Below, piece after piece: positions 12,984-57,576 of a stretch of 64,000 bases of DNA. This DNA is from Magnolia sinica (lineage: Eukaryota; Streptophyta; Magnoliopsida; Magnoliales; Magnoliaceae). Within the stretch, counting starts at the first letter, position 1. Each line of letters begins with the position of its first letter. Below the pieces are notes generated by a model. It made no database searches, was not told where the DNA came from, and saw nothing but the letters and a program-made list of their open reading frames with translations. The DNA lies in contig NC_080579.1 of the NCBI RefSeq assembly GCF_029962835.1, positions 80,183,959-80,247,958 of the forward strand, in the 5' to 3' direction. Position numbers and translations under genes: made by a program.

Positions 12984-13623
12984 TGTTGCACAGCATGCCA
13001 ACAATGCTAGTGAACTGAGATCTAATCTTCGGTCTCACCCACAAAATGATAAACAGGAAGAAAAAATAATCTAGAAGTAGAATCCAAGCATACCAACAAA
13101 CCACAAGACAGAATATACGTGGAAAAACCCCAACAAGGGTTAAAAAACCACGGGTGCAAACTTCCACTATGAAGAAAAATGAGATTACAATCAATATACT
13201 AACCTTGGACGTATAGAAAACCCTTAGCCTTGCTTTAGAAAAGAAAATCTTTTTTCATGCCCTAGAATAACCTTAGGACCCCTATTTATAGTTTAAGCAA
13301 CTCCCTTCCGCACCTTGGCGAAAATCGCCTCAAATTTACGCAGTCCGCACCAAATCCGGACTAGGATCTGCATAGCCTCGACTAGTCAAGCAAGGGCCTC
13401 GACTGGTCGAGCGGCCTACTCGACTGGTCTAGCACCCCACTCAACTGGTCGAGCACAATGGAATTCCAAAACATTAGCTCGTTGGACTTTGAGTCGAGCA
13501 CCGCTCAACCGATCAAGCGGCCCACTCGACCCATCGAGTAGTCTACTCGACCCATCAAGTAGCCTGGTGAAAGGCCTCCATTTTTCAACAGGCGCATTAG
13601 TGTGCTGGCTCCACACCTCAACA
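12984..13623 (-). repeat. 3' LTR of the copia element
   Basis: Matches the 5' LTR at 17593-18171 and the LTR at 61170-61758. From about 13376 to 13565 it contains a run of ~20-bp units around the palindrome-like core 'cgactggtcgagc' or 'ctcgacccatcgag'. It has about three more of these units than the 5' LTR. Confidence 0.9.
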
Positions 13624-13698
13624 ATCTTCCACTTGGAGACATATCACATAAACCTTTGTCTTCTACATCCGGAGTGCACCATCTCCCCGTCTTCAAGC

Positions 13699-14220
13699 CT
13701 AAAGACCAATCAAAGCTAAACAGAGCTTCAGCTTCTCCCATGTGACTACCTTGGTCAGCATATCCACAGGGTTCTCACTTGTATGGATCTTCTCTAGAGC
13801 AATCGATTCATCTTCTAGTAACGAGCATATGAAGTGATATCTGATATTAATATGCTTGGTCCTTGAATGAAAGGTTGAATTCTTAGCCAAGTGTATTGCA
13901 CTCTGACTGTCACTGTACAGCTTGCAATCTGCTTGCTTCTTTCCCAACTCTTCCAGAAAACTTTGCATCCACACCATCTCCTTGCACGCTTCTGTAGCTG
14001 CAACATATTCTGCTTTCGTTGTACTCATGGATACTATCTTCTGTAACTAAGAGACCCAACTGACTGCACACTACCCAGAGTAAAGACATACCCTGTAGTG
14101 CTTCTTCTATTGTCGATATCTCCTGCCAAATCTGAATCTACATAGCCTTGTAGCTTGATTTCTGATCCTCTATAACACAACCCTACATTCACATTACCTA
14201 CCAGGTATCTAAGGATCTAC
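13699..14220 (-). pseudogene. Copia RNase H remnant
   Basis: Minus-strand translation gives the copia RNase H block in two frames. The main frame, 14028-13699, includes [16 protein letters not shown], then [14 protein letters not shown] and the conserved HTSENPVDMLTK end. The preceding DSDLAGD and [10 protein letters not shown] block lies at about 14140-14070 in another frame. The acidic residues of the RNase H core are still visible, but the frameshift separates them from the RT. The adjacent left sequence is the polypurine tract and LTR. Confidence 0.85.
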
Positions 14221-15464
14221 TTCACAGCTTTCCAATGTTCCTTCCCGGAGTTGTTCATGAACTTGCTAACAACTCCCACTGCTTGAGTAATATTCGGCCT
14301 CGTATTTACTATAACATACAAGAGGCTCCCAATAGTTGATGCGCATGAGACTTTAGCCATGTAGTCTCATTCCTTCTGCATCTTCGCACCTTGCTCCTCA
14401 AAAAGCTTGAAGTGGTTGGCTAATGGAGTGTTAACCGGCATAACACCTCCCATACTGAATCAATCAAGTACCTTAAATATGTACTCTGCCTGTGACAAAA
14501 ATAGTTTCTTGTTTTTCCTGTCACATTTTATCCTCATGCCTAGGATTTGTTTTGCAGCTCCCAAATTCTTCATGACAAATTCTCTAGACAGTTGTCTTTT
14601 GAGATCTGAGATGTCCTTCATGCTTAATCCGGCCACAAGCATATCATCAATGTACAGAATAAGGATGATGTACGACGTATCAAACTTCTTTAAATAGCAA
14701 CAGTGGTTTGCATGATATCTCCTAAAATCGTTTCCCGACATGAAGCTGTCGAACTTCTTGTACCACTGCCTCGGGGCTTGCTTCAGGTCATATAGACTCT
14801 TCTTTAGTCTACACACCTTGTTCTCCTTTTCTGGTGCCACATATTTTGTCAGCTGATGCATATATATCTCTTCTTCAAGGTCCCCATGAAGAAAGGTTGT
14901 CTTAACATCTAGCTGCTCTAGATATAAGTCATCTGTAGCCACTCTACTCAAGACCATGCGAATCGTAGACATTTTCACCACTGGTGAAAATATTTCAGTG
15001 AAGTCGATACCTGCCATTTGTTGGAACCCTTTCATAGCCAATCTGGCCTCGTATCGTTTCGAACCATCTTGTTCTTCCTTCAGTTTGTAAACCCACTTGT
15101 TATGAAGAGCTGTCTTACCCTTAGGTAGAGTGACTAGCTCCCACGTACGATTGGACTCAAAAGAGTTTATCTCATCATCCATGGCCTGCTCCCACTTAAC
15201 ACGTGTATCTAACTGTAATGCCTCTTCAAAATACTCTGGTTCACCATTATTTGTCAGCGGTAGATAATGTAAGAAGAGTGAGTATCGGACCTTGGGTCTC
15301 CTCTCCCGAGTAGACTTCACAACCGGTGTCTGTGGCTCTACCTCATTGTGCTCCTGGGCATGCTCATCCTGTAGCACTGTAACACCCATGTCCGGTAACT
15401 CTTCCAACTCTACAAATTCTTTCTCATCGGCCTTATTTTGTTGCACACTGTCCTTATGCATCAC
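14220..15464 (-). pseudogene. Copia reverse transcriptase remnant
   Basis: The longest frame, 15464-14460 (334 codons), spans the end of the linker region and most of the RT. It runs from NKWVYKLKEEQDGS, through FTEIFSPVVKMSTIRMVLS, VKTTFLHGDLEEEIYM and KSLYDLKQAPRQWYKKF, to the catalytic YIDDM box. The rest (PVNTPLANHFKL and the VVSKFMNN block) continues at about 14450-14220 in another frame with stops. Catalytic aspartates of the YIDD box are intact, but the polyprotein around it is not. The closest relative in the window is the RT at 62369-62998. Confidence 0.9.
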
Positions 15465-15517
15465 TTTTTCATTGAAGAATATGTCTTTACTTCTGATAAT
15501 TTTTGGTTCTCTATATC

Positions 15518-16589
15518 CTAAAAACGGTAGCCAAAATCATGTTGTCCATAGCCTATAAACGTGCACTTCTTTGACTTTGCATTCAGCTTGTTTCTGTGCT
15601 CAGCATCAATGTGAACATATGAAGTGTAACCAAACACTTTGAGATGTGCAAGGTTCACTTCTTTCCCAGTCCACGTTTCTTCTGGTAGCCCACTATCCAA
15701 TGGTGTTGAGGGACTTCTATTGATGAGATATGCGGTAGTATTTACAGCATCTGCCCAAAACGTCTTAGGCAACCCTGCACGTAACCTCATGCTCCTGGCG
15801 CGGTCAAGGATAGTCCGGTTCATGCGTTCAGCCGCACTGTTCCACTGTGGTGTCCTTAGAATTATTTTCTGATGTTTAATTCCATTTGCTGCACAATACT
15901 CCTCAAACCTCTTATCATAGTACTCTCCCTTATTATCTGATCTGAGACATTTTACTGTTTGTCTCATTTTCTACTATTACTTTCCACTTCTTAAATACAT
16001 CAAATACATCAGATTTGTGCTTTAAGAAATAGACCTACAATTTTCTACTATTATCATCAATAAAAGAAACAAAATAACATGAGCCACCAATAGATGATAC
16101 CCGTGCCGGTCCCCACACATCAATGTGTACAAGCTCCAACAGATGGGTCTTTGAAGCGCGTTCTATTTTTTTGAAACTTATCCTCTTTTGCTTGTCATAC
16201 ATGCAGCCCTCGCAGAATTCCAAGTCAATTGACTTTAGCCCTGGTAGCTTCCATTTTGACAATAACACTTTCATTCTCTTTTCACTCATATGTCCCAACC
16301 TCTGATGCCATAACTGGCCATTCACTCCAGTTGATACGACTGCGAGTGAATCATACGATCTGAAAGTCACGTACAAAGTACCTTCCTTCTTGCCTCGAGA
16401 TATCACCAGGGCACCTTTTGTGACCTTCCAGGTATCACTAGTGAATGTCGTCACATATCCGATATCGGCCAACTGTCCCACTGAGATCAAATTCCGTCTC
16501 AAACTCGGTACATGTTTGACATCCTTCAATTTCAAAACCATTCCATTTTCTGACTTATATGAACGCCTCCTTTTCCAACAATACTGCAC
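15518..16589 (-). pseudogene. Copia integrase remnant (two frames)
   Basis: The frame 16589-16035 holds the GAG pre-integrase and HHCC zinc-binding region (LWHQRLGHMSEKRM, then CEGCMYDKQKR) and the start of the catalytic core (HIDVWGPA). The frame 15967-15518 holds its second half, with LRSDNKGEY, the usual position of the second acidic residue, and AAERMNRTIL around the catalytic glutamate. A break of about 70 bases with stops separates the halves. Confidence 0.88.
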
Positions 16590-17553
16590 GGCTCATCATC
16601 ACCTAGATAGACTTTTCCAAAATCATCTAACACATAATCACACAGAACTTCCTTACACGAAGTGGCATGAAATGAAGCACCCGAGTTTATAACCCAAGAC
16701 TCATTCCGCGCATCAAGAGATAAGATCAACGCCTTTTTGTCACTCTCCTCAAATAGATTCATTGAATCCTTCCCAACTTGAGAGTTTCCTTCTTGTTTAT
16801 TAAGGGCCCGCAATCACGTTTCATGTATCCCTTCTTCCTGCAATGCCAACACTCATACTTGTCTTTCGGTCCTTTAGACTTCTTCCTCAACTTAGAACGT
16901 CCGTGTTTATTGCCTCCTTTGTTCAGTGATCTTTCTCTTCCTTCAACGTTTAGAGCATTCCCTGAATCCCCTGAAACTCCTTATGTCTTTCTTCTAAATT
17001 CTTCGCTAAGAATTAGACCAGCCACATCATCGAACTTCAGCTTTGTCGACTTTGAAGAATTGCTCACGACAATCATCAAATCATCCCAACTGTCTGGCAA
17101 ACTGGACAAGATTAATAACGTCCTGATCTCATCCTCAAAAGTGATGCCGACGGATTCTAATTGGGTCGTGACTGTATTGAACTCGTTTAAATGTTCAGCT
17201 ACGCTCCCACCATCTGACATCTTCATATTGAATAGCCGTTTCATAAGATGAACCTTGTTGGACGCTGAGGGTTTCTCATACATCGTAACTAGGGCTTGTA
17301 TTAATTCTTTTGTGGTCTTCACTTCGGATATATTGAAAGCGTCGCTCTTAGATAAAAAGAGTCAGATCGTTCTTAAAGTGTTCTAATCCAATAAAGACCA
17401 TTCATCATCTGTCATCTTCTCTAGTTTCTTCTCTTTTCCTCCTAGAGGAATATAAAGGTCCTTCTAATACAGATAATCCTCCATCTGCATCTTCCAGAAG
17501 GTAAAGTTTGAACCATTAAACTTCTCAATTCTAGTCTTCTCTTCTTCTGTCAT
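16532..17553 (-). pseudogene. Copia gag and protease remnant
   Basis: The gag start codon reads on the minus strand at 17553-17551, about 30 bases after the primer-binding site, and is followed by NGSNFTFWKMQMEDYL. In-frame stops interrupt this frame at least three times before 17330; the frame is then open over 17322-16981. The zinc knuckle (about 16860-16815) reads CWHCRKKGYMKRDC: the usual histidine of the CCHC motif is tyrosine. In the protease part (16813-16532) the usual DSG active-site triad reads NSG (WVINSGAS). Both changes would be expected to inactivate the element. Confidence 0.85.
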
Positions 17554-17592
17554 CGCTCCCACTTGAACTAAACCAATAACTTTGATACCAGT

Positions 17593-18171
17593 TGTTGCAC
17601 AACACGCCAACAACGCTAGTGAACCGATATCCAATCTCTAGTCTCACCCACAAAATGATAAACAGGAAGAAAAATAATTTAAAAGTAGAATCCAAGCATA
17701 CCAACAACCACAAGACAGAATATACATAGAAAAACCCCAACAAGGGTAAAAATCACAGGTGCAAACTTCCACTATAAAGAAAAACGAGATTACAATGGAC
17801 GTATAGAAAACCCCTAGCCTTTCTTTAGAAAAGAAAAATATTTTTCATACCCTGTAATAACCCTAAGACCCCTATTTATAGTTTAGGCAACTCTCTTCCG
17901 CACCTTGGCGAAAATTGCCTCAAATTTACGTAGTCTGCACTAAATTCGGACTAGGATATGCATAGCCTCGATTAGTCGAGCAAGGGCCTCGATTGGTTGA
18001 GCGGCCCACTCGATCGGTAGAGCATCCCACTTAACTGGTCGAGCACCGCGGAATTCTAAAACATTATCTCACTGGACTTTGAGTTGAGCATCGCTCAACC
18101 GGTCGAGCAGCGAGGTGAAAGGCCTCCATTTTTCAATGGGCACATTGGTGTGCTGGCTTCACACCTCAACA
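17593..18171 (-). repeat. 5' LTR of the copia element
   Basis: Pairs with 12984-13623. Its right part, from about 17938, was included in the A1/A2 duplication and recurs at 21609-21846 with the same adjacent flank. Confidence 0.9.
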
Positions 18172-20530
18172 TGGCCACCTACAAGCCACAAAGTGTTGGA
18201 TTGTGGCATAGTTAAGAATAAGTTAAGAGAAACATTGTCCTGTAAGTTTAGATAAATTACTTAATGTTGGTATTATGGTTATAAAGGCTTACAATATTTA
18301 ATAGTCACAAATGAAATTATCTAAACACAATATTATGAGGGCAGATTGCACTCTTGAATCAAATTAATTTCGAAATTAGAGTAGCTACGAGCTTGATTTT
18401 GTATGGTAAAGTGTGATGAGGTAAAATATGTATAAATTCAGAAAATGACTTCTAAAATAGTTTGAAATTAAAGATATAGACAAGGAACCATGGTGACGGG
18501 AAAAGGAATATTTTTCTGTATGTTGCGGTCTCTACTTGGTGACAAAGAGAATTTAGTTTTAAACAAGAAGAATTCTTGCACTAGAGGAGAAATGAAGATA
18601 TAATAAGAAATTATAACACATACAAATCAAAATAACAAAGAAATGGAAATCTCAAACTCCGACTATAAATATTTTTAATGTTGTTGGGGGGATATCTTTG
18701 ATATACTCTTATACGTTCAAATTTGTACTTCAAATCATATTAGAAAGGTTGTCAGAGCTGAATCTCAAGCCAAGAGGATGTAGAAACCTCACTGATCAAA
18801 ACACGTCCATGTGGCTTTTGACTTTAGTGGCCATTGATTTAGGTGGTCGTACACACTGAAATTATGTGGTGGGATAAGCGTATATTATAACGCATGCGGA
18901 AGCTTGGCAGAACTATAAAATTATGGCTAAATCTTAGAGAGAGACGATTAGGACTAATTTAAAAGTATACAATTAAAAACACAATTACCTACTTAAATTA
19001 ATTTATAAATTAAAAATAAGTAAGACAAATGAACATTAAGGCTTTCAAACCAAAGTGGGTCTAATCACATACTAGTAATTTTGTGTATATAAGCAATAGT
19101 AATTTTGTGTATAGTATGTGCTACCTATCAACACCTAACATACATCTAATCATTATATATAATTCATCAAATTAAGTTTATTAGTATAAAGAGAAATGTG
19201 CTCAAATGACAAATCCAAACACGGGTATGTATAATGGTTCTGTTTCTCTACTCTACCCCCGGCAGATCCACTCTCCTCGAGTGTACCGGTATTCACTATC
19301 AGGGGTTTTAAATCATGTTCACTTCTAACCCATACAACCTTATACAAGGACCTAAATGTACATTCCTTTTGGAGGCTCCCTCTGATACTTAATTAGTTTT
19401 CTATTGGAGACTTAGTTTTTTATTGGCTAACCAACAACCTCAGTCTTAACCTAATGACCAACGTTTACTTCCGTCAGAGGCTCTTGCGGATACTAACACG
19501 TACGCACTCGTGTTCGATGAATTTGGCCATACACAAGAGCCCAGTCATACACAAGAACTTATTCGAGTTTGGGTTACAAATTCTTACACTCAACCCTACA
19601 CAATGAAAGAGTGTATGTAGAGTCTTAAAAATGACACTTACTTGTCGGATTGAGCTATTTTGTAGCGCCTTGCTTAAATCCGCTTCTCAATTGCTTCCAC
19701 GTTTGTTGATGCCGATGGTTCGGCTCTACAAACAAACACTTTACATGCGATGCTCTATTAAGGTGACTAAGGTAATGGAAGGATGATGGAATCTACTACA
19801 ACTAACTAAATAGTTGATTTCCTAGGGGATTCACTTAAATGAGTGTTATAAGGTGTTTAGACATGGGATATGCTTATAAGCTTGGATTTAGTATTTCAAA
19901 CAAGGTGGTGATTGAGTTCATATTTAATGTGGAGGTTTAAATCCTTATTAAAATGGTTAAGCTCAAGAAGATGAGTAAAAATTTATTGGTCTGGAGGCTT
20001 AAGATTAGGGATATAAGTGAGGAATATCTTAGGCTTCTATTGTACCAAAAATCCATCCATATGCCCAATAACTGAATGTTATATATAGGAATCGAGTTCC
20101 AATAGTCAAATAACGGGCAAAATTTTACACTATTGATTGACTGACCAAAGGATGTTGATTGATCGACACCCACACCAATTTAAACCATTAACATATACTG
20201 CAACAATTAGTTCGATTCGTGAGAAGTTAGGCATCAAGCATTACAAAAATAAAATCTAAGATATTAAGAAATAACTATCATTAGGTAAAAACGATGCTCG
20301 AATAAGTGAATTTGGATGGGACAACACTTGAAAGTGTGTTACTGCTGAACCACAAGTATGTGATGCATGCATCCAGGTAAACTAATAGAAATTATTTTTC
20401 ACACAAAATCTTTCTAGTTGTAGTAATGTTAATATATGTGTGTGTATGTGTCTGAATTTTAAAGGCCACAAATGCAATATAGAACAAATGAGTTTTGGAA
20501 CAACCCATTTTCTCAATATGATAATATGGT
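17938..20530. repeat. Duplication block A1
   Basis: Near-collinear with 21609-24216 over about 2.6 kb, with scattered substitutions and small indels. It begins inside the copia LTR and continues through non-coding flank. It ends at the ATGGT (20526-20530) that is the left target duplication of the split LTR. Paired open frames (19153-19347 and 22851-23045; 19937-20173 and 23623-23859) show no recognised domain and are not called as genes. Confidence 0.9.
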
Positions 20531-21608
20531 TGTCACGCCTTGAAATTTGGGGGTCGAGCATATCTCAGCTCCCGAGTTTCAAAACATCACTTATGCAACA
20601 TATTTAATGATGGATGTATGTTGTCTGTAAGAGTACATAAAACATGGGATAGATTAAGCCAAACTGCAAACATAATTCAGGGATAAGTGAAGGATGCAAG
20701 CAGAAGACTTATAGAATCATATGTGTACATGTACAAGTCCCTGAAATACGTATACATGCCAGGTCATACTTACAAGTGTTACTATTAAAAGTACAAATAT
20801 TAAATGACATCATCTATTACAATAACCCAGAATTCCCCGCACATCAGGACATGGCTCACAAGAACCCGCCTGAGAACTGCAAAAAAGAAAATGCGGCCTC
20901 ATCATCCTCGAACTCTTGCTCTGCCTCAGAAGTCGCGTCAACATCTGCATCTAAGATAGTCTGGTTGGTGTGTACAACACCGCCCCAGAACGTGGGAGTG
21001 AGTGATCAACTTAGTGGAACAATAAAGCAAAGGTTAACATGTTTTCAATTCAATCAAGCAGTAATGATAAAGCAAAACAATCAAACATGTCCTAACTACT
21101 GTTGTTAGTGCAAGAATGTATGTATAAATGATGCATGCCCTCGCCTTCCTCCCTCAACGTCTTTATCTTACGTTACGCATGACATCCTCCCGCAGTGCCA
21201 ACGACTTCCACGCACATGCAAATGTGGTGTATGAACATGATTACTAAGTTGTTATTAGTCCTTTTCATACAGCAGGATTGGGAAGCTAAGGTACCTTCCT
21301 CATATTAAATTCCACATAGTGATCCATTCTAGGGTCGTCAGTCCCAGGCCATCTCATACGATCATATGGTTTTAGGTCGTTGCAAAGGGCTCGTCACCAA
21401 TCAATGTACGCCTATCATACCTTCGTTATTACTCTAAGGCTCGTCGCGTTAATGCAGCATCAAGGTATGCTCAAGGTCACTACAAAGGGTTCATTACCAA
21501 TCAATGTAGGCCGACGCACGAATATAGTGTCTCATACCACCATAATCGGCTCACGAGTCTAGTGTGCTCACTAGTCACTACGGGGAGGCTCGTCACCCCA
21601 GTGTAGGC
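20531..21608 (-). mobile_element. Split gypsy-type solo LTR, 3' half
   Basis: Starts TGTCACGCC on the plus strand, that is, the minus-oriented LTR ends in GGCGTGACA. Its right end stops at 'gtgtaggcc', where block A2 begins. In the related LTR at 5504-7879 this position is followed directly by the sequence that here resumes at 26791, so the two pieces are halves of one LTR. No coding content; the 110-codon frame at 20776-21108 is not supported as a gene. Confidence 0.85.
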
Positions 21609-24216
21609 CACACCAAATTCAGACTAGGATATGCATAGCCTCGACTAGTCGAGCAATGGCCTCGATTGGTCGAGCGGCCCACTCGACCGGTCGAGCATCC
21701 CACTTGACTGGTCGAGCACTGCGAAATTCTAAAACATTAGCTCACTGGACTTTGAGTCGAGCATCGCTTAACCAGTCGAGCAGCGCGGTGAAAGGCCTCC
21801 ATTTTTCAATGGGCGCATTGGTGTGTTGGCTCCACACCTTAACATGGCCACCTATAAGCCACGAAGTGTTGGATTGTGGCATAGTTAAGAATAAGTTAAG
21901 AGAAACATTGTCCTGTAAGTTTAGATAAATTACTTAATGTTGGTATTATGGTTATAAAGGCCTACAAAATTTAATAGTCACAAATGAAATTATCTAAACA
22001 CGATATTATGACGGCGGATTGCATTCTTGAATCAAATTAATTTCAAAATTGAAGTAGCTACAAGCTTGATTTTGTATGGTAAGGTGTGATGAGGTAAAAT
22101 ATGTATAAATTCAAAAAATGACTTCTAAAATAGTTTGAAATTAAAGATATAGACAAGGAACCATGGTGAAGGGAAAAGGAATGTAAGGCAATTTTTTCTG
22201 CATGTTGCGGTCTCTACTTGGTGCCAAAGAGAATTTAGTTTTAAAAAAGAAGAATTCTTACACTAGAGGAGAAATAAAGATATAATAAGAAATTATAACA
22301 CATACAAATCAAAATAACAAAGAAATGGAAATCCCAAACTCCGACTATAAATATTTTTAATGTTGTTGGGGGGATATCTTTGGTATGCTCTTATACGTTC
22401 AAATTTGTACTTCAGATCGTATTGGAAAGGTTGTCGGAGCTGAATCTCAAGCCAAGAGGATGTAGAAACCTCACAAATCAAAACACGTCCATGTGGCTTT
22501 TGACTTTAGTGGCCCTTGATTTAAGTGGCCGTACACACTGAAATTATGTGGTGGGATAAGAGTATATCATAACACGTGTGGAAGCTTGACAAAACTATAA
22601 AATTATGGCTAAATCTTAGAGAAAGGCGATTAGGACTAATTTAAAAGTATACAATTAAAAACACAATTACCTACTTAAATTAATTTATAAATTAAAAATA
22701 AGTAAAGCAAATGAACATTAAGTCTTTTAAACCAAAGTGGGTCTAATCACATACTATAAAAGATATGCCGATGAAGCAATTAGTCTATAAGCGATAGTAA
22801 TTTTGTGTATAATATGTGCTACCTATCAACACCTAGCATACATTTAATCATTATATATAATTCATCAAATTAAGTTCATAAGTATAAAGAGAAATGTGCT
22901 CAAATGATAAATCCAAACACGGGTATATATAATGGTTCGGTTTCTCTACTCTACTCCCGGCAGATGCACTCTCCTCGAGTGTACCGGTATTCACTATCAG
23001 GGGTTTTAAATCATGTTCACTTCTAACCCATACAACCTTACACAAGGACCTAAATGTACAATCCTTTTGGAGGCTCCCTCAGATACTTAATTAGTTTTCT
23101 ATTAGAGACTTAGTTTTTTATTAGCTAACCAACAACCTTAGTCTAACCCAATGACCAACATTTACTTCCGTCAGAGGCTCTTGCGGATACTAACACATAC
23201 ACACTTGTGTTCGGTGAATTTGGTCATATACAAGAGCACAGGTCATACACAAGAACTTATTTGAGTTTGGATTACAAATTCTTACACTCAACCCTACACA
23301 ATGAAGGAGTGTATGTAGACTCTTAAAAATGACACTTACTTGTCGGATTGAGCCATTTTGTAGCCTTGCTTGAATCCGCTCCTCAATTGCTTCCACGTTT
23401 GTTGATGCTGATGGTTCGGCTCTACGAACAAACACCTTACATGCGAAGGTGACTAAGGTGATGAAAGGATGGTGGAATCTACTACAACTAACTGAATAGT
23501 TGATTTTCTAGGGGATTCACTTAAATGGGTGTTATAGGGTGTTTAGACATGGGATATGCCTATAAGCTTGGATCTAGTCTTTAAAACAAGGTGGTGATTG
23601 AGTTTATCTTTAATGTGGAGGTTTAAATCCTTATTAAAATGGTTAAACTCAAGAAGATGAGTAAAACTTCATGGGTCTGGAGGCTTAAGATGAGGGATAT
23701 GAGTGAGGAATATCTTAAGCTTCTATTATACCAAAAATCCATCCTTATGCCCAATAACTGAATGTTATATATAGGAATCGAGTTCCAATAGTCAAATAAC
23801 GGGCAAAATTTTGCACTATTGATTGACTGACCAAAGGACATTGATTGATCGACACACACCCCAATTTAAACCATTAACATATACTGCAACAATTAGTTCG
23901 ATTCGTGAGAAATTAGGCATCAAGCATTGCAAAAATAGAATTTAAGATATTAAAAAATAACTATCATTAGGTAAAAATCATGCTCGAATAAGTGAATTTA
24001 GATGGGACAACACTTGAAAGTGTGTAACTGCTGAACCACAAGTATGTGATGCTTGCATCCAGGTAAACTAATAGAAATTATTTTTCACATAAAATCTTTC
24101 TAGTTGTAGTAATGTTAATATATGTATGTGTGTGCGCGTGTATTTTAAAGGCCATAAATGCAATATAGAACAAATGAGTTTTGGAACAACTCATTTTCTC
24201 AATATGATAATATGGT
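21609..24216. repeat. Duplication block A2
   Basis: Second copy of A1, beginning abruptly inside the copia LTR sequence (cf. 17938) and running through the copia flank. It differs from A1 by dispersed substitutions and small indels, for example an extra stretch near 22758-22790. At 24212-24216 it reads a single ATGGT with no LTR: the unoccupied version of the insertion site. Confidence 0.9.
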
Positions 24217-26790
24217 AATAATAGTTATGACTAATTACACTACCGGCAACAAATCAGTGGTATATATTGAGTCCAACAAAATTATTGAAAATCCCACATG
24301 AGGGGGCATTTAGCTCAAAATTCATTTGAAAAAAATCTCAAGGTGCGTTAAGGGCATACTTTTTTTATGCAGGTTCGCAACATATATCATCACCAATATT
24401 TGAAATGAATAATATTTCACAAGCTAAATCATCTTCAATGAGACCATAACAGGAAAAAAGAAGAAGCTATTATTAAACCTGAAAATGATGCACAAGATAG
24501 AGTGTTTAGCCTCGCCTCTCGAAGTGACCTAAGCGATGTTGATAGAGATGTAAGCCAAACTCAATAATTTTATGGATACGCACCATATTGCTCAAAATGA
24601 TAAAAGTAACCTCCATCAATACATAATACAGTATATGAGGGATATTGTAAACATAAATAACTGTATAGGTGCCAAACATTAAGGTGTCTTACAAAACATA
24701 GAGAGTTAACATTATTCTTCATCGAATTACCTATTGAACCAATATTAGAGTTTCTGGTAAACATTATTTGAAATTTGAGGGTGTCACATTCTTTTTATAA
24801 CTTTTATTTTAGGTAATTTCATAATTTAGGTCTATATAATTCTAAAAATATTTTATATTTGTTTCTTTTTTATTAATATGCGTGCACATATGTTTTATAA
24901 ATTATATGGTGTGTATGTTTTGACTACTCAAAATTAGAGTATATATATTTTTCTTAACATATTGTATTTTGCTTCAGGTGGTAAATTTTAGTGGGCCCAC
25001 TTTTTATGGCCCACTTGAAGTTCAAAATCACATTTTTTTCAAAGTATGTATTTTGATGGGCTTATTGCCATAATTATTTATATTGTATACATGTTAACCA
25101 CTTTAGGGTATTATATATAATTTACTCAATCATCTTGAAAATTTATGTAAATATACCACAAAATTTGAATGGATTTCAAATCCATATTGCCATACAGAAT
25201 TTTTTTAAACTCTAAGTTATTCTAAATCAAAGGTGTCAAATGCAACTATTCTAAATTCAAGGTATTCCAAATCCAGGGTGCAAAACACAACTTAAGTATT
25301 CTAAACCGAGGGTATTCCACATTTATGGTGCAAAATATACTAGAATATTTCAAATTTAGGGTATTCTAGATCCAAGATATTTCAAATTCACACTCCCGAA
25401 CAAGGTCTTAATACTTGAATGTATTTTGAGGGAGCATAACTCAAATACTTGGTGTCAGGGTGGCTTAAAACATGCCTTAGCATTAAGTACAAGATTTCCC
25501 TTCATACTCGTAAGGCTTGTTAGATAAAAGAATTGACAAACCTACAACACCATGACGGACCCCACAAAAAAATAGTGGTAAATGTCCCCATTCCAACTAT
25601 TTCGTATGTTGTGACTCACTTGAATTCTGGATCAATATGACTTTTGGTTCTTATGGTCAACATGAGGTGGTGCACCTAAAGGGAGTCGTTGATTGCATGC
25701 ACATTTCCTTTAAGTGGCAATGTGAGGCACACTGTAACCATTTCTATAAGAAAATAGCTGAATTAATGTCACGCTCCAAAATTTTGGTACCCGAATAGGG
25801 TTACTTAATATCCAAAGTCCAAGCACGTGAGCTAAAATTTATATATTATCATTAATATATAAGTAAATACTCAATCCTACAAGGCTATGTATATACAAAA
25901 TAAAGAAGGACAACTACTAATTCCAAACTTAATTAAATAACATTGTACCGTACTATCTACAACTTAAGCAACTAATTAAATTAAATAACTTAACTTATTA
26001 CATTAACATTTGAAATTTCAAACTAAACCTAATGCAACTAATAAAAAAGACCCGCCTGCTCGAAATATTCCAACTCGGCACTTGTATGGTTTAAATTAAC
26101 GTGAGTATAATGACTCAGTAGGATCGTCTCAAACACAAATCTGAAGTTCTAAATTTCTTATGTCTTTAAGTAAAGTAATATATTTGAAATAAACATACAA
26201 ACAAAACTTATAATAACATCAAGTAAAAGGAATGTAAAAATGATATACATGCGATACTATTCATGATTCCACATAAATAATTAAATAAACATCCATTATT
26301 AATTACAACACCGTACTCAATGTATGGCCACATCGCATTAACGTTCACGCACCGATACTTCGTGGTGAAGGACCCATTTATACATTAGCTGGTCAAACTA
26401 CTGCTCCAATTGTACTTCTGATGTATGTCCGCACACACGATTGTACTCATACGCCGTATACAAAAGACACTCCAAATGATCCAAGGGACACGATGGCCCC
26501 AATTGCTTTTACCAATTTATTCTTTTTTTTCATCGTTTCATAATAAATAGAAATACATGTATGTCATGAATGAATCCAAAATCAGTAATAAAATGATTCA
26601 GTAAATTATATTTCCCTACAATAATGTAGGTTGTATACAAAATTTGTGGAAATTCAGTGTTGTTAAAATTTAGTCCCTGAAATTACCTAAAAAACTGTTT
26701 ACTGTAAGGGACAGTAAATTTAGATTTTCTGAGGGTATAGGCCGTGTTTTGTAACTGTGAAAATTTATTCCAAAACCCCTTGACTTTTCT
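24212..26790. repeat. Duplication block B1
   Basis: Near-collinear with 28817-31365. Contains short degenerate tandem 'tattctaaa...caaggtattcc' units at about 25215-25390 and, from 25767 (TGTCACGCTCC), the 3' end of another minus-oriented LTR family. It stops at 'ttgactttt' near 26788, inside that LTR, where the second half of the split LTR resumes. Confidence 0.9.
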
Positions 26791-28816
26791 GCAGCTCGAC
26801 CACGGTGTCCCATACCACCATGTCTGGCTCATGAGTCTTAACGGATCAAGGTACAACGGTTAACGGAATTTCATCGGTAAGTTTGGTACCCTAGATTCAA
26901 GCAATAGCATCCATACATGTTTAACATACATCGGACAATCGGCTTACTTGACGAACTCGACTAGCATGAGCGCACGTTGAGTTGAACGACATAGAGTGCG
27001 CAAACACTCCGTGTGGCCAAACCACTGTCGACAACTCTAATACCACTCGGGTTCGTCAAATCACGTCCTTCGTGGCGAAAGCAACCTCAGCCACAAACTT
27101 AAGGCCGATTACCGATTTTCTGGACTATTTCATAGTCCCAAACACATTCCACTACAATAGATATTCATATCAACACTTAAAACAGTAATGGAACAACAAT
27201 TCAAATCATACAGTATGTGAGCATTTGAAGCATATCAACTTAACATGGATTTCAGCATAAGTAATACTTGAAGTTAAACAACAAAGAATGTGACTTGCAT
27301 GTAGGAAATCATACACACTAATAGGAGTGTTGAGAATCGCTTCTCAATGCCCGCAATTAGGATAATATATTACACTTTAGACCATTCAGACATTTCTACA
27401 AACACTTAGACTACATAGGTCAACATACATGATGTATGTTGGAATACACGCATTTGGACCATTCCTTTTGCTAAGGAGTTGACACACATACAACTAGCAC
27501 AAATACACAACAGTTAATTATGGTAAGCACGTATTCATATTTTATACGTATACGATACTTCCTACATATACATAGAATACACAAATCTCAATATAATACG
27601 TACATATCAGGAACGCAAACTGAACATAGCATTTGGCATGTGAAATTGCACCCACAACAAGAATAAACCATTAACTAACATTGAAAGCCTTGAAAACCAT
27701 AACCTATACGAATATAGTCCGCACCTTAAACCAGAAAAAGCACACCGAACTGATTCAGACGATATGTCTTCGTCAACGACGACTAGATAACCTAAGGCAA
27801 GAATAGAAATGAGCTACATCAACACATAGACTCTTCTAAGCTCTAAAACAGATTAGGATTAGATTAACTTACCCAAGAAGGAACTTAGAATCCCCGAAAT
27901 AACGATTCAAAAGTGATGGTTTAAGGATGTAGAATAACAGGAAAGAATCTTGAGATGATTCACCAACTTCTCTTTCACTCTCTCTCTTTTCCTCTCTCTT
28001 TCTTAACTAGGGTTAGGAAATTCGTATGGAAAAGAGAGTGAGGGTTTTAAGGTCTTTATATAGGCCTAACATTGATGAAAATAGCCCCAGGGCCAAGGTA
28101 TACTTAGGTTATAACCAAATCAGGCCTTTCTCGATCCAACGGAGCACTTCTGGTGGTCCTTTTTCCACGTGCGGTCGGACTTAAGCTCACTGACCATGTA
28201 TCTAGGTCGTGAGATTAATTTAAATTGTTCGGATGGATTACAGATCAGCCGTGGCGGACCACTCTCAATTCAATGGTCACCAAAACTCGATCAGGCCCAC
28301 AAGCATCATGACATGCCTGGGCCATCTTCCCTGATCCGAGGGTGAAATTGGGTCAGAATTCAATGGTCAGATTGCTTAAAATCGTCGCGCAAGCGACACG
28401 ACTCAAATTTCATAAAATCATATTTAATTTCTCACCATTCTCACACTCTTCACTCCGGCCTTAATCAAATCGACCCAGGACATCATCTGGACTTGATTTT
28501 TGAGGTGATGGTCAAGTCCAACATGGTGACCATAAATGTCTAAGATCATCACTATCGGACTTTCGACGCGTGGTCCAGGTCCGAACCAAATCTTCTAAAA
28601 ATTCCCAAGAGCAACTGGATTTCGCGTTGAATCCCAGATTTCAGAGTAACATAGCGCTAACGATTCTACAGGTTTTGAGTCCTGCAGATCAAATTTAAAG
28701 TGATTGATGCTAATTTCACAAGCAATCGAGTTTAGCGCTAAATAACCCACAAATAACTTCTAAGGAAAATAGAGGTAGTACTCGGGTCTTAGCACGAAAT
28801 TTTTCGGGTCATTACA
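26791..28816 (-). mobile_element. Split gypsy-type solo LTR, 5' half
   Basis: On the minus strand it starts TGTAATGACCCG at 28816. The minus-strand promoter cctatataaagacc lies near 28055-28068, followed by a GA-rich leader (about 27960-28010), the architecture seen at 5616-5745. The left limit joins block B1 at about 26790. Followed by ATGGT at 28817-28821, matching the ATGGT before 20531. Joined to 20531-21608 the LTR would be about 3.1 kb with a perfect 5-bp target duplication. Confidence 0.85.
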
Positions 28817-31365
28817 ATGGTATTAATAGTTATGACTAATTACACTACCGGCAACAAATCAGTGGTATATAGCTCAAAATTCATTTGAAAAAAATCTCAA
28901 GGTGCCTTAAGGGCATGTTTTTTTTATGCAGGTTCGCAACATATATCATCACCAATATTTGAAATGATTAATATTTCACAAGCTAAGTCATCTTCATTGA
29001 GACCACAACAGGAAAAGAGAAGAAGCTATTATTAAACCTGAAAATGATGCACAAGATAGAGTGTTTAGCCTCGCCTCTCGAAGTGACCTAAGCGATGTTG
29101 ATAGAGATGCAAGCCAAACTCAATAATTTTATGGATACTCACCATATTGCTCAAAATGATAAAAGTAACCTCCATCAATACATAATACAGTATGTGAGGG
29201 ATATTGTAAACATAAATAACTGTATAGGTGGCAAACATCAAGGTATCTTACAAAACATAGAGAGTTAGCATTATTCTTCATCGAATTACCTATTGAACCA
29301 ATATTAGAGTTTCTGGTAAACATTATTTGAAATTTGAGGGTGTCACATTCTTTTTATAACTTTTATTTTAGGTAATTTCATAATTTAGGTTTATATAATT
29401 CTAAAAATATTTTATATTTGTTAGTTTCTTTTTTATTAATATGCGTGCACATATGTTTTATAAATTGTATGGTATGTATGTTTCGACCACTCAAAATTAG
29501 AGTATATATATTTTTCTTAACATATTGTATTTTGCTTCAGGTGGTAAATTTTAGTGGGCCCACTTTTTATGGCCCACTTGAAGTTCAAAATCATATATTT
29601 TTTTTCAAAGTATGTATTTTGATGAGCTTATTGCCATAACTATTTATATTGTATACATGTTAACCACTTTAGGGTATTGTATATAATTTACTCAATCATC
29701 CTGAAAATTCATATAAATATACCACAAAATTTGAATGGATTTCAAATCCACATTGCCATACAGAATTTTTTTAAACTCTTAAGTTATTCTAAATCAAAGG
29801 TGCCAAATACAACTAAAGTATTCTAAATTCAAGGTATTCCAAATCCAGGGTGCAAAACACAACTAAAGTATTCTAAACCGAGGGTATTCCACATTTAGGG
29901 TGCAAAACACACCTAGAATATTTCAAATTTAGGGTTTTTTAAATCCAAGATGTTTCAAATTCACACTCCCAGACAAGGCCTTAATACTTGAATGTATTTT
30001 GAGAGAGTATAACTCAGATACTTGGTGTCAGGGTGGCTTAAAACATGCCCTAGCATTAAGTACAAGATTTCCCTTCATACTTGTAAGGCTTGTTAGATAA
30101 AAGAATTGGCAAAACCTACAACACCATGACGGACCCCACAAAAAAATAGTAGTAAATTTCCCCATTCCAATTATTTCATATGTTGTGACCCACTTGAATT
30201 CTGGATCAATATGACTTTTGGCTCTTATGGTCAACATGAGGTGGTGCACCTAAAGGGAGCCGTTGATTGCATGCACATTTCCTTTAAGTGGCAATGTGAG
30301 GCATACTATAACCATTCCTATAAGAAAATAGCTGGATTAATGTCACGCTCCAAAATTCGGGTACTCGAGTAAGGTTACTTAATACCCAAAGTCCAAGCAC
30401 GTGAGCTAAAATTTATATATTATCATTAATGTACAAGTAAATACTCAATCCTACAAGGCTATGTACATACAAAATAAAGAAGGACAACTACTAATTCCAA
30501 ACTTAATTAAATAATATTGTACCGTACTATCTACAACTTAAGCAACTAATTAAATTAAATAACTTAACTTATTACATTAATATTTGAAATTTCAAATTAA
30601 ACCTAATACAACTAATAATAAAGACCCGCCTGCTCGAAATATTCCAACTCGACACTTGTATGGTTTAAATTAACGTGAGTACAATGACTCAGTAGGATCG
30701 TCTCAAACACAAATCTGAAGTTCTAGATTTCTTATATCTTTAAGTAAAGTAATATATTTGAAATAAACATACAAACAAAACTTATGATAACATCGAGTAA
30801 AAGGAATATAAAAATGATATACATGCGATACTATTCATGATTCCACATAAATAATTAAATAAACATCCATTATTAATTACAACACTGTACTCAATGTATG
30901 ACCACGTCGCATTAACGCCCACGTACCGATATTTCGTGGTGAGGGACCCATTTATACATTAGCTGGTCAGACTACTTCTCCAGTTGTACTTCTGATATAT
31001 GTCCGCACACACGATTGTACTCATACGCCGTATACAAAAGAGACTCCAAAAGATCCAAGGGACACGATGACCCTACTTGCTTTTACCATTTTATTCCTTT
31101 TTTTTCATCGTTCCATAATAAATAGAAATACATGTATGTCATGAATGAATCCAAAATCAGTAATAAAATGATTCAGTAAATTATATTTTCCTATAATAAT
31201 GTAGGTTTTATACAGAATTTACAGAAATTCAGTGTTGTTAAAATTTAGTCCCTGAAATTGCCGAAAAGACTGTTTATTGTAAGCGACAGTAAATTTAGAT
31301 TTTCTGAGGGTATACGCCGTGTTTCGTAATAGTGTGAAAATTTATGCCAAAACCCTTGACTTTTT
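28817..31365. repeat. Duplication block B2
   Basis: Copy of B1 with substitutions and small indels. Here the LTR-like sequence starting TGTCACGCTCC is at 30341. Unlike B1, it continues past the duplication end into AT-rich sequence. A 64-codon open frame at 29129-29323 is mirrored at 24570-24764; no domain is recognised. Confidence 0.9.
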
Positions 31366-32430
31366 TTAAAAATTTATTTGAGCTCTTAATTTGTGATTTT
31401 CTTTTTATAGTTTTATATATTGATAGAACTAATTATCTTTTAAAATTTTAAAATAAAATAAAAATTTATAAGATTAAAATTTCAACTTAAATAATTAATT
31501 AACCATATATACTAACGTTTATATTAATCGCTAAACACCAAATTCTATAATTATCAACAATTTCATAAATAATCTTAATCTCATTTAATTAATTTTAAAT
31601 AGATTTAGTTCTTAATATTTGAATTGAATTCGTATTACAAGTGAGCGTAATTACTATTAATCTTATAATAGTAACTACAAATTAAATTATAATATAAACT
31701 TATAACTTAATTAAACATCTTAAGGTAATTCTTAATTTAGGTCAATAGATTGACTAAAATAAAGTCCTATATCTATATTTTGTATATATTAAATTTATTG
31801 AATTAATTATTCTAATATTTTAATCAATGCATCAAATTAAAATTTTAAATTCTTCAAGAGGATTTATGTTACTAATTTAATTTTTATATATCAAATTTTT
31901 TACAATTTGTATTTAAATTAATTAATTTATAATATTAAGTTTTTTTCTAGAAATTTGTGAATTAATCCGAAGTTAAATATAATTTTTTTAATTAATTAAC
32001 AAATTCAGAAATTTAAAGTGAGTTTTATACTATTGATGGTAAAGCATTTCAATTCAAAAGAGTCTATAATTTATAACAACTTGAAACCATAAATTTACGT
32101 AAAAATTTTGAGCAATAATTTAAAATTAATAATTCTTAAGAATTTTATATTTTAAATTAATTATATATTAACATTTTATATAAAAAATTAATAAACAAAA
32201 GATCACCCCAATGACACAGAATAATTTATTTAAAAATTAAATGATTAATTAACATATTATATAAATTTTAATTATTTAATTATAATAAAATTATATGAAA
32301 ATTCGAATTTAAAAGCATACATATCTAAAATTCCAAATTCGTATAAGATTACCAACCTTAATTAAAATATAAAAAATAAAAAAAATCTGTTGATGCAACT
32401 TGACAGGGCCTGATTCAATATCGATATCTC
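31366..32430. other. Extremely AT-rich non-coding stretch
   Basis: About 1 kb composed almost entirely of A and T with runs such as ttaattaatt. It may be the rest of the LTR that begins at 30341, but no matching LTR end or target duplication was found. No open frame of note. Confidence 0.6.
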
Positions 32431-32507
32431 TCTTTTGATTTCCAGAGTTCTCCTTATCTTCTCTCTCTTTGTTTTTTTTTTTTTTTTAATTGTTTATTTG
32501 TTTTCTC

Positions 32508-32565
<58 letters not shown>

Positions 32566-33300
32566 GGGTGGATATGGGACGGTTTATATTAGTGGGAGGG
32601 TCCGGTACCCATTACTGTATGAAGAAGAAGGAAGAAGGGCGAGGAGTGGGTTGGTTCGGGCTGTGACATGCTTTCGCACGTCACTGCTGATAACTTTTTT
32701 TTTAAAAAAAAAAGATGTGGTGGGTCCCATTGATGATATTATAAATCTACTCCGTCCATCATCTTGGCCTGGCCATGAGAGTAAAGGAATTTTTTGGTTC
32801 TTGGTATATCTAAAATGGAACACATATGTATCATCTATTACAACAAAAGTATTAGCTGTATTTGCATTTGTCATGACCTAGGATCTAGCTAACTCCCACA
32901 CTTTCTCAGTTAAGAGGTATCAAATGAAAGGTTTAAATATTCAATCATACACAATTAAAATTCAAGAAGAAGAAGGAAAAAAAAAACTAAAGATTTAAAA
33001 TTATCAATGAATGTGATTTCTATATATTTTTAATGACACCGATTCTTAAAATTACTTTGATTAAATGATCTAATGAGAAATTGTTCTTTTTAAAGACAAT
33101 GTCATGTGGACGCTTATATTTTGGCTGAATTCCAAAAACAAGCTTGCTTTTAAACTGTTTCATAAAACACTCTTAAAATTTTAAAATACAATAAAAAAGC
33201 CACATAATTTGACTTTGACTCATGACTCTTATAGAATTCTGTTTGTTGTATTTCAAAAAGACAATAATGCCCCTTTTGTTACTTGTTATGCTTGCGGAAT
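32431..33300. other. Microsatellite and unassigned sequence
   Basis: Contains a T-run, a (CT)n(AT)n microsatellite at about 32503-32564, and a diverged half of the GTGGGTCCCA fold-back family at about 32713-32780. The 148-codon frame at 32435-32881 reads through the microsatellite and is not a gene. Confidence 0.55.
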
Positions 33301-33310
33301 CCACTCCTTT

Positions 33311-33780
33311 GACAGGAAGTTCTTGGGCAGAAAGGTAGGTGGGGCCCACTATGATGTTTAATCCACCCCATTCATTTGTTTTTCAAGTTCATTTCAAGAC
33401 ATGCGACAAAAAGAGCTGGATCTACTACTGATGTGGGCCACATGAGAGGAAATAATGGGATTGAACAACTACCATTGAAACATTTGTATGGACACAAAAG
33501 TTTTGTATCAAGATTATTTTTTGTGTTTTTAGTTCATCCCAGTGGGAATGGCATTATAAACTGTTTGGATGACATATAAACATTAAGGTGGAGTCCATGA
33601 AAGTTTCAATTATATTCATTTCATTGCCCACTTTTCCCTCTCGTGTGACCCACTTGAGTCTTAAATTTAGGTCATTTTTATCACGTCTTAAAATGAGCTT
33701 GCAAAATGTAGATGAAGTGAAATACTCACAGATATCACAGTGGGTACCACCTAACTTTCCAATGCAACTACTTCCTACAG
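33311..33780. mobile_element. Fold-back (palindromic) element, copy 1
   Basis: The outer arms 'gacaggaagttc' (33311) and 'acttcctacag' (ending 33780) are inverted copies, as are the inner arms from ggtggggcccact (33338) and the 'agtgggtaccacc' near 33749-33762. The middle shows the family's mirrored blocks: 'ccacatgagaggaaataatg' near 33439 against 'tcgtgtgacccacttgag' near 33640. No coding capacity. Probably a non-autonomous DNA element, possibly Mutator-like given its long inverted arms (inference). Confidence 0.7.
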
Positions 33781-33868
33781 AAGGCTTTTGTAGGAAATAT
33801 GAATGAACTAACAATGTGGCAAAAGTAGATTGCGTGATTTGAGGCACACAACGGACCAAGCAAACTAA

Positions 33869-34300
33869 TATGGGTCCCACCATAATGTATGTGTTATATA
33901 CACATTGTCCATTCATTTTTTTAGACCATTATAGAGCATGAGACAAAAAATGAGGTAGATACAAATCATAGGTGGACCACGTCACAAGAAGCATTGGTGA
34001 CAATGAGGCCTATTGTTGAAAACTTCTGGGGCTAGATGAGATTTGGAAAAGGCCGATATTTGTATTTTTCTTTCATCCTTGTCTATGAGACCCCCATGAA
34101 CAGGTTGGTTGGCAAAAAAACATGACGGTGGGACTTAATAAGGTTTCAATGGTGGGTGTCATTGTTCCCACTACTCCATGTGGTGTGGTCCACTTAAGCT
34201 TTGAATTTGCCTCATTTTTTGGTTCAAGCCTTAAAACGGTCGCGTAAAATGGATGAACAATGTGGTTATAACACATACAACATATTTGGAGCTACAACAA
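33869..34300. mobile_element. Fold-back element, copy 2
   Basis: Left arm from 'tgggtcccaccataatgtat' (33871), right arm ending 'aacacatacaacat' near 34282. Mirrored interior blocks are 'ggaccacgtcacaagaagca' (near 33974) and 'tgtggtgtggtccacttaag' (near 34180). It has lost the outer GGAAGTTCC-type arms on at least one side. Confidence 0.65.
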
Positions 34301-34350
34301 TTTTCCATGTCAACATACCATGGGAGGTTGGTGGTGTGTGGCACACTTCG

Positions 34351-34850
34351 CAAGCATTTTACAGGAAGTTCCATGTTGGGATGCTATGTGGGGCCCACCG
34401 TCATGTTTTTGAGAAATCTACACTGTTCATCCATTTTCCACATCATTTTAAGATGCGAGGCCACAAAATTAGGTGAATCCAGAACTCAAGGTGGCCATGC
34501 CAGAGGGAAAACCAGAGAAAGAGTTTCCCATCGTTGAAACGTTCTTGGAATCTACCTTGATGTTTATATGCCATCCAAACCATTTATAACGTCATTCCCA
34601 CAGGGATGAAGTGAAAACACCATAATCTTAGATTGATATGAAACTTCGTGGCCATACGTGTGTTTCAAATGGTGGTCACTAAATCCTCATTGTTTCCTCT
34701 CGTGTGCCCCATTGAGCTTTGGATCCACCTGATTTTTTGTCTCATATCTTAAAATGATCTGAAAAAATGGATGATCGGTGTGGATTTCTCACAAACATCA
34801 CTATGGCCCCACATAGCCAACACAGGAACTTCCTGCAAAAGGCTTTCGTA
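34351..34850. mobile_element. Fold-back element, copy 3
   Basis: The clearest palindrome of the cluster. 'acaggaagttccatgttggg' (34361) and 'gctatgtggggccca' on the left mirror 'ggccccacatagcc' and 'aacacaggaacttcctg' (34805-34835) on the right. The interior includes the family's 'cctcgtgtgccccattgag' block. No coding content. Confidence 0.75.
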
Positions 34851-36267
34851 GGAATTCCGCTTGAGCCAGCGACCTGACCCATAGGCCCCACCTTGATGTC
34901 CCATAGTTCCCACCCGATCGTAGGATTTAAGCAATGGTGGGTGGTTGTGTGGCCCTGAGAAGGTTTCACTGACACGTGTCATTATCACCGCTTATCTTCG
35001 ATGATAGAAAGATTTGGGTGAGACAATTTCAAATGTGTGAGAGGGAGCCTTCGGGTGAGATTTTGAGATGGAGAGAAGGAGAGGAGATAAAGAGAGGGAA
35101 GGGAGAGAGATTGTAACATTTGACGGTTCGGGCAGAGAGAGAGAGAGAGAGAGGTGTGTTTTATTAGAAGAGTGTTCTGAGAATTTTCTTTCAAACTATT
35201 ATTATTTTTTAAAATATACAACGCCGAATACGTGACATTGTCAGACAGTGAGCTTTTTTTCACTAACGAATAAAAAATTTACGCAGATTTTAAGAAACAT
35301 TATCTCTTCTTTTTTAACATTATATTTGTAAATTAATTTTATCTATGTAATTCTTAATGATTATTTATAAAAAATATAATTTGATTGACTATACTATGAT
35401 TCCTGTGGGGCATGATGAAATCCACCAAGCAGGTCCAATATTTGCCAGACCTTTCTTACCACAGTACACGTGGCATGGAGAGGTATCAATCGGGGCTGTT
35501 CATCCTCTGGGTCCTATGATGGATGGCACACGTGTCCAGAATCGCAACTACCACAAAATCCAATCCATCATCTAATGCACTGTTTATACTGATCTGATGT
35601 CTACAACCATTTGATCCATTCTTCTTTCGAAAGAGGACCCATTTGAAGGAATCGAAACTAGATGGACGGTCTTCATCGATTCATCCCCGCCGTGTGTACC
35701 GCAGAAAACAGATCAACCATATTCCCTTCTTGTAACTGTCTGGATTCTTTTCGATCTCGCACGCTCCCTGTCCCCTCTCATCTCACGTGACACATCCCTT
35801 TCTTTATCCGCACTCCACCTAACCAATCCATTTGAGAGAAAAATTCAGTACACTAGTAGAGAGTAGCGGATGATACACATGCGCTCAAGATATTACTTAT
35901 AAATTGCATACGTGGCATAGAACTAAGTCAATAAACTGTCCACATTATTATTCCCAGCGTAGACGTATGATGAACCAAAAATAAAATCTCGATCTGACCA
36001 TCAAAACTGGTGGACATGTATTGGACGGTTAGAAAGAAAATCCAATGATCCAATTTCAACAAATTAGTGTCCATGAATCAACCGCTGGCTTTATCGACGG
36101 TAGGTTCCACTATTTATCCAGTTTAATTGGAGTAAATGTGTACCACCTGAGATCTCCTGACTGCTTGCGTATCAAGCGTCATATGCTACCTGAGTAACAT
36201 ATAAGTAATGACTCCCCTTTTAATGAAAGGGATCCGAGCCGTCTGCACCGCCTGTTTAGCTAAGCTC
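34851..36267. other. Intergenic, diverged repeat pieces only
   Basis: No gene seen. Contains a GA microsatellite at about 35134-35153 and scattered 'gtggggcatgatg' and 'gatggacggtc' words at 35400-35700 that look like eroded fold-back pieces. The 92-codon minus frame at 34985-35263 crosses the microsatellite and is not supported. Confidence 0.5.
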
Positions 36268-36692
36268 CGTGCTCCCCACCATTTTCAAATGTGAAATCCG
36301 CTCCGTCCATCAGGTGAGAACACTCATTTTCACCGTACAAATAAAATCATCCTGATTAAAAAACTCAGATGGGGACACCAGAAGAAACAAGGTAAAATTG
36401 CACATAAAACTCCAAATTCACATGGTGTGTCCCGCCTGAGTTTTGGATAAATCTGATTTTTGGTTATTCACTTCATCCTAGTGCACCAAACCTGATGAAT
36501 GGATTTGATGAAAAGTAAACCCACGGTGGCCCCACCAACAAACCTATGGTTGGCGTTCCATCTCCATTGTTTCCTGTGGTGTGGCCCACCTGAAATGTGT
36601 AGTTAGTAGTATTTCATCCTGATACTTAGAATCGAGGAGCGCACCTGATGGACGGAGTGGATGGAAGACAGACAACATGGTGGTCCCACAGA
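36268..36692. mobile_element. Fold-back element beside the prohibitin promoter
   Basis: The left arm 'ccaccattttcaaatg...ccgctccgtccatcaggtg' (from about 36276) is mirrored by 'cacctgatggacggagtgga' (36643-36662) and 'catggtggtcccac' (36676-36689). The interior carries the 'tggcccacc' blocks of the family. It ends about 240 bases before the start codon of the prohibitin gene, so it forms the outer part of that promoter region. Confidence 0.75.
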
Positions 36693-36719
36693 TCTTCGTT
36701 GTTCTTCGAAGGGGTTGCA

Positions 36720-56102: not shown

Positions 56103-56272
56103 GAAAAACACAACTGTTGACATTTTCATTTGATGTTCTGTACAAATCTGTACACAAACCATTGGAAGAACACAAATCAAAGAATGCGAAAAACACAACT
56201 GTTGACATTTTCATTTGATGTTCTGTACAGATCTGTACACAAACCATTGAAAGAACACAAATCAAAGAATGC
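56103..56272. repeat. Recent 85-bp tandem duplication
   Basis: Copies 56103-56187 and 56188-56272, both starting 'gaaaaacacaactgttgaca' and containing 'ttctgtacanatctgtacac', differ at very few positions. The unit length is not a multiple of three, so any coding frame here would be shifted. It lies between the exon at 56402-56641 and the one at 55801-55985. Confidence 0.9.
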
Positions 56273-57535: not shown

Positions 57536-57576
57536 TTACTGACCCAAAAGTATGGCTCTATTTTCCTATTGTTGAT

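Follow-up and report, generated by a model that had tools for sequence, protein, structure and literature searches.

Duplications attributed to the repair of double-strand breaks have been described from vertebrates by Pace et al. (2009; PMC2671141) as repair-mediated duplications. Human inserts of proximal origin are reported there to reach 619 bp and those of distant origin 3,424 bp, 824 of 1,136 donors were within 5 kb, and a possible preference for the homologous chromosome as the source of ectopic templates is suggested. In plants, filler DNA of 1-123 bp has been reported at breaks that follow the excision of DNA transposons, and was explained by synthesis-dependent strand annealing (SDSA) (Roffler and Wicker 2015; PMC4423477). 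Work on mouse meiosis (PMC12918824, a preprint) reports fragments freed by double cuts, with inserts from other hotspots that measure 15-967 bp in Atm-/- animals and, in Mre11-/- animals, 19-339 bp. Here, we describe a locus of Magnolia sinica in which a solo long terminal repeat (LTR), referred to as L, is itself interrupted by a 5,182 bp copy of the locus that L occupies, referred to as X2.

The window analysed is C7:80,183,959-80,247,958, a stretch of 64,000 nucleotides, and the locus with its nested LTR lies at positions 17938-31365 of it (13.4 kb). The native left and right halves of the locus are called A1 and B2, the corresponding halves of X2 are A2 and B1, and R is a dispersed repeat. 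Searches covered an assembly of 1,838,573,281 bases in 127 contigs, and for each query the best 40 of thousands of candidates were scored. In the open-licence literature on break-repair insertions and related subjects, no paper among those listed has a title or abstract opening that describes such a case.

The interrupted solo LTR and its insert

Along the forward strand, the parts of the locus and their target sites are as follows.

17938-20530, forward strand: A1, native left half, including the ATGGT target site; 94.0% identical to A2 and continuous with a whole Copia element upstream
20526-20530, forward strand: target site duplication (TSD) left of L, read from the sequence as ATGGT
20531-21609, forward strand: 5' part of L, beginning TGTCACGCC; ~94% identical to positions 1-1080 of two C8 LTRs
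21610-26791, forward strand: X2 (A2-B1), the 5,182-bp insert, a copy of the locus that lacks L and has no TSD
24212-24216, forward strand: single ATGGT inside X2, read from the sequence, the empty target site; relatives L012, L014, L015 and L016 are uninterrupted there
26792-28816, forward strand: 3' part of L, ending CATTACA; the GA (2 bp) of the family is absent between 21609 and 26792
28817-28821, forward strand: TSD right of L, read from the sequence as ATGGT
28817-31365, forward strand: B2, native right half, beginning with the second ATGGT; 95.3% identical to B1

L interrupts the native locus and is itself split by a second, L-free copy of that locus, the nested anatomy that a first-pass annotation of the sequence had proposed. 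A solo LTR of ~3.1 kb between ATGGT duplications had been described between A1 and B2, and L is 3,104 bp long with TG..CA termini and ATGGT on either side. A C8 family member has two LTRs ~10 kb apart, and the two parts of L together match each of them from end to end, minus 2 bp at the break. As the two parts cover these LTRs completely, L is a complete solo LTR that has been split once: one full LTR with TG..CA ends and a 5-bp TSD, and with no internal region. The annotation had also noted that the halves of L are contiguous when compared with a related LTR near position 6,700. This holds for that LTR and for all 14 of the family copies that were fetched, in each of which the sequence is unbroken across the break point of L. 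At no fewer than 10 places outside the window, at least, matches to the 5' and 3' parts of L are 3 bp apart, and 7 of these are among the 14 fetched copies.

The family to which L belongs is very large. A first look gave >10,000 candidates; of the main matches that were scored, the 39 besides L are 87-94% identical, and the LTR pairs of the family differ by ~4-6%.

With gaps excluded, A1 and A2 are 94.0% identical over 2,580 aligned bases (Kimura two-parameter distance, K2P, 0.063), and B1 and B2 are 95.3% identical over 2,531 aligned bases (K2P 0.049). These values, with the single ATGGT at 24212-24216, agree with the earlier description of A2-B1 as a copy with one target site that carries many small differences from A1 and B2. 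The split of L by a segment of ~5.18 kb also stood, and only the exact split points in L, given as 21608/26791, were moved; the insert is best set at 21610-26791.

Ends and junctions of the insert

The two ends of X2 lie in repeats that are shared with the native copy, and the features involved are as follows.

12984-18171, reverse strand: native Copia element, with LTRs at 12984-13623 and 17593-18171 and flanks TGGCT/TGGCC, defined by LTR alignment and TG..CA ends
21610-21844, reverse strand: outer end of the Copia right LTR within X2, forming the first 235 bp of X2 and followed by TGGCC as in the native copy
25767-26791, forward strand: start of repeat R within X2, beginning TGTCACGCTCC; it makes up the final ~1.02 kb of X2 and is truncated by the right junction
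30341-32788, forward strand: native repeat R, uninterrupted through 31365; the right end is set by the match to L004
21608-21609, forward strand: left junction; the CC here agrees with L as well as with the donor Copia LTR, a microhomology of 2-3 bp (CC, perhaps CCG)

The minus strand of the Copia element encodes RVT_2, GAG-pre-integrase and SH3 domains, and its right LTR holds the left breakpoint of the copied segment. The A block is thus not anonymous sequence, as the two-copy description had left it, since it opens with 235 bp from the outer end of this LTR. At the other end, native R continues past the breakpoint at ~80% identity to L004, L006 and L008. Because both the Copia LTR and R run on uninterrupted in the native copy, the ends of X2 are arbitrary cuts within other repeats, and X2 is a segment of a locus rather than an element. 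It follows the native locus colinearly and includes the end of its Copia LTR together with the target-site bases, which implies that it came from the same locus or from a true duplicate of it.

These ends bear directly on ordinary nested transposition, in which A-B would be a transposon and X2 another copy of it that jumped into L. Nested elements are common in plants, and parts of A and B do have old dispersed relatives (65-80% identical). However, X2 has neither termini of its own nor a TSD, 2 bp were lost at its insertion, both its ends fall within other repeats that continue in the native copy, and no other near-full copy was present among the scored matches. A-B was rejected as a transposon on the lack of a TSD and the position of its ends, and we regard nested transposition as extremely improbable. 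A Helitron was rejected by eye, as the junctions show neither an A|T insertion site nor a CTRR end.

The Copia LTR also provides a relative date. In an alignment of 324 shared columns, some of them from the flanks and junctions, the pieces of the right LTR in A1 and X2 have 31 differences from each other, and the left LTR has 73 and 82 differences from the A1 and X2 pieces, respectively. As the two pieces are closer to each other than to the left LTR, the Copia insertion predates the parting of the native and X2 copies. A second Copia of the same family (84% over 2.9 kb) is found at 61169-64000, where it runs off the end of the window; it has an RVT_2 match on the minus strand.

At the break, the L family reads GTAGGCC-GA-CAGCTCG with few variants, and the window reads GTAGGCC, X2, CAGCTCG. 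The GA of L was therefore lost at the insertion and nothing was duplicated. On the right side, the R relative L006 reads GACTTTTCTGAAAATT, L004 and L008 are nearly the same, and L005 and L007 differ more. The best reading of CTG at 26789-26791 is that it came with the donor, which would make the right join blunt. The native copy has TTT where X2 and the R relatives have CTG, and X2 therefore keeps an older state at this site. There is no poly-A tail at the X2 junctions. The junctions have the hallmarks of imperfect break repair and resemble those of end joining.

A homologous crossover between L and R was also considered, as both breaks are ~1.05 kb from an LTR-like start, and was rejected. 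Three pairs were compared, the L parts with R (two) and with the Copia LTR (one). The local alignment scores were within the range of 100 shuffles each, with two of the three 1.6-1.7 standard deviations above the shuffle mean.

Source of the insert

The surrounding sequence is an old repeat, and all five of its relatives that were fetched (72-74% identical by BLAST) span the ATGGT site. L012, L014, L015 and L016 read straight through it; L013 was matched in the opposite orientation and was not usefully aligned. X2 also has 46 bp (24265-24310) that are missing from B2 at 28869/28870, ~50 bp from the LTR, and the same four relatives have alignable sequence there. Given the uninterrupted site in the relatives and the retention in X2 of the 46 bp lost from B2, the donor of X2 would most simply never have carried L. 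As the resident copy carries L, it was not the literal template for X2, and the empty-site version makes the donor distinguishable from the resident chromosome.

An L-free insert could in principle come from an L-bearing template, either the sister or the same molecule, if the polymerase, while copying the locus, switched between the two ATGGT sites and so skipped L. The required 5-bp direct repeat is present, the branch of L is no shorter than that of the copy/native split, and most repair-mediated duplications have a donor within 5 kb (824/1,136; PMC2671141). Against this, there are 11,797 identical 5-mer pairs common to A1 and B2, so that an exact jump between the two TSDs is one of about ten thousand choices, and a donor without L provides the empty site for free. 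We consider slippage of this kind very unlikely.

When X2 was compared with the whole assembly, three long matches of >90% were found among those scored, all in the window, namely X2 itself, A1 and B2. A1 and B2, which are 1,079 and 2,025 bp from the break, are thus its only other close long matches among those scored. For the part of X2 without R (21850-25760), no scored match outside the window exceeded 80%; the others were 65-80% identical, and the 80% match covers ~80 bp. The neighbouring 5 kb (36300-41300) had no long recent duplicate among the scored matches, the best outside ones being 88% over ~530 bp and 92% over 350 bp. A paralogue is expected to be present in a haploid assembly, and an allele is expected to be absent from one. 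The homologue is therefore favoured as the donor, and the lack of another close copy of X2 and of a long duplicate of the neighbouring 5 kb, among the matches scored, is as expected if the donor was an allele.

Repair templated by a homologue and an ectopic copy had both been offered as routes in the first-pass annotation. The lack of a second donor among the scored matches, the end-joining-like junctions and the ancestral empty site favour the former. For an ectopic donor, a paralogous L-free duplicate elsewhere would have supplied X2 and later been lost, or would lie outside the assembly. The divergence of 5-6% exceeds present allelic diversity, and the junctions do not reveal where the donor was. 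However, the matches scored above include no such duplicate, either of the R-free part or of the neighbouring 5 kb, and it would be a rare chance for a random donor to hit the very locus that brackets the acceptor. An ectopic source is thus unlikely, though less so than the other alternatives.

We conclude that a break in L was probably repaired with DNA from a homologue that lacked L. In this event, an ancestor heterozygous for the L insertion would have suffered a double-strand break 1,079 bp into L on one chromosome, and the break would have been sealed with ~5.2 kb of the same locus from the homologous chromosome without L. The donor piece would have reached from within the Copia LTR to within R. 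Its ends would have been joined with 2-3 bp of microhomology on the left and bluntly on the right, at the cost of 2 bp of L, so that a single chromosome would now hold the locus in its two versions, in cis and one within the other. The piece may have been copied, by microhomology-primed synthesis or SDSA with the homologous flanks holding the chromosomes in register, which would explain why the donor is the same locus. Alternatively, a fragment may have been cut out of the homologue by two cuts and captured, which would explain the blunt right junction. Copying and capture give identical sequence.

The annotation had cautioned that a haplotype-merging error in a heterozygous genome must be excluded. 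The assembly was built from ~100x Oxford Nanopore (ONT) reads (mean 22 kb, N50 25 kb) and has a contig N50 of ~45 Mb; scaffolding and gap filling with LR_Gapcloser were used, and genome-wide heterozygosity is 1.21% (PMC10999834). An alternative-haplotype contig could thus have been placed, or used to fill a gap, within the LTR, and all three breakpoints are within repeats, where contigs tend to end. However, X2 and the native copy differ at 274 of 5,106 sites (5.4%, raw), which is ~4.4 times the heterozygosity, a genome-wide and not a local figure, and does not resemble the difference expected of a duplicated haplotype. The ONT reads exceed the 13.4-kb structure in mean and N50 length, the contigs are long, the window is without N, and the halves of L meet exactly but for the 2 lost bp. 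In about half of X2, where relatives allow changes to be polarised, 45 are derived in the native copy and 57 in X2, and 23 could be assigned to neither. Of the 102 resolved changes, 62 are C>T or G>A, unlike read error. Two copies decaying independently account for these changes better than an alternative haplotype of the same tree or read errors. With a divergence of 5.4% against 1.2% heterozygosity and similar decay in both copies, a merging error is unlikely, and an assembly artefact of any of these kinds seems to us rather improbable, more so than an ectopic donor.

A mosaic pattern of divergence was considered and set aside. The first kb of B has 3.1% differences and the rest 5.9% (Fisher p 0.0002; transversions alone p 0.04), but this kb also has a low G+C and CpG content, and 1,126 of 5,000 permutations reached the variance seen among 250-bp windows.

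Several points weigh against a homologous donor. We infer both the break itself and the homologue as its donor, and the donor chromosome is deduced from a single assembly. The divergence between the copies (K2P 0.063 and 0.049) is far above the present nucleotide diversity (theta-pi 0.0149; PMC10999834), so that most of it must have arisen after the event, unless the alleles were already old; this divergence would also fit a paralogue that has been lost. L is also not clearly younger than the copy/native split, though a donor on the homologue would prefer a younger L, and we regard this as slightly unfavourable. Compared with the majority of 12 family copies, L has 25 transversions in 2,571 sites, which is an upper bound on its age, and X2 and the native copy differ by 64 transversions in 5,111 sites, or ~32 per branch. 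In a tree, the L branch is 0.038 and the X2 and native branches are ~0.028 each. Two of the 14 loci, L030 and L035, were left out of the tree and the rate counts, as their 3' parts were unaligned. L is richer in CpG (34.8 versus 9-20 per kb), and both this and recombination between L-bearing and L-free alleles can blur the order of the ages of L and its flanks.

Elsewhere in the window, a stop-to-stop open frame of 329 codons with a Band_7/SPFH domain is found at 36794-37783 on the forward strand, ~5 kb to the right of the locus, and we take it to be prohibitin-like. Diverged inverted repeats (~67-74%) are present at 33306-34851 and 48235-48679, in two clusters that also match each other. Two-copy tandem repeats are present at 56103-56272 (85-bp unit, 97% matching) and 57564-57909 (171-bp unit, 87%).

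Comparison with described repair insertions

Inserts copied from the sister, from the same chromatid or from the homologue would be almost identical in most repair-mediated duplications, and the donor is then indistinguishable. Here, the missing LTR acts as a tag that points to the homologue. On balance, we favour the view that a homologue recognisable by its lack of L gave a 5.2-kb non-allelic insertion to a break within the LTR. The locus would then be a fossil of both haplotypes of one heterozygote, preserved in cis, and its sequence would show directly that the homologue can serve as a source for repair-mediated duplications and that these can be several kb long. It also defines a signature for searches, namely an LTR interrupted by the empty-site version of its own flanks. 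With this signature, donor choice, tract length and end joining in germline repair could be measured genome-wide from assemblies alone.

The closest of the described systems are the repair-mediated duplications of Pace et al. (PMC2671141). Those duplications consist of genomic DNA copied from elsewhere, mostly from <5 kb away, into a transposable element that it interrupts, and the joins have microhomology, small deletions or filler. L likewise contains an insertion of well over the minimum (at least 50 bp) for this class, at a point that is contiguous in 14/14 family copies, and the joins, with CC(G) on the left, 2 bp lost, a blunt right side, no TSD and no poly-A, are of the same type. However, X2 is longer, at 5,182 bp, and the host is a plant. 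X2 also spans both flanks of the acceptor and carries the empty-site version, which the described cases do not. The plant filler DNA (PMC4423477) shares the insertion of a foreign segment during break repair, for which SDSA is the explanation given. It differs in that the break here would lie within an LTR and the filler is 5.18 kb from the same locus. In the mouse (PMC12918824), pieces freed by two breaks were joined into another break, as the capture of a fragment would require here, but the insert in L is 5.18 kb long.

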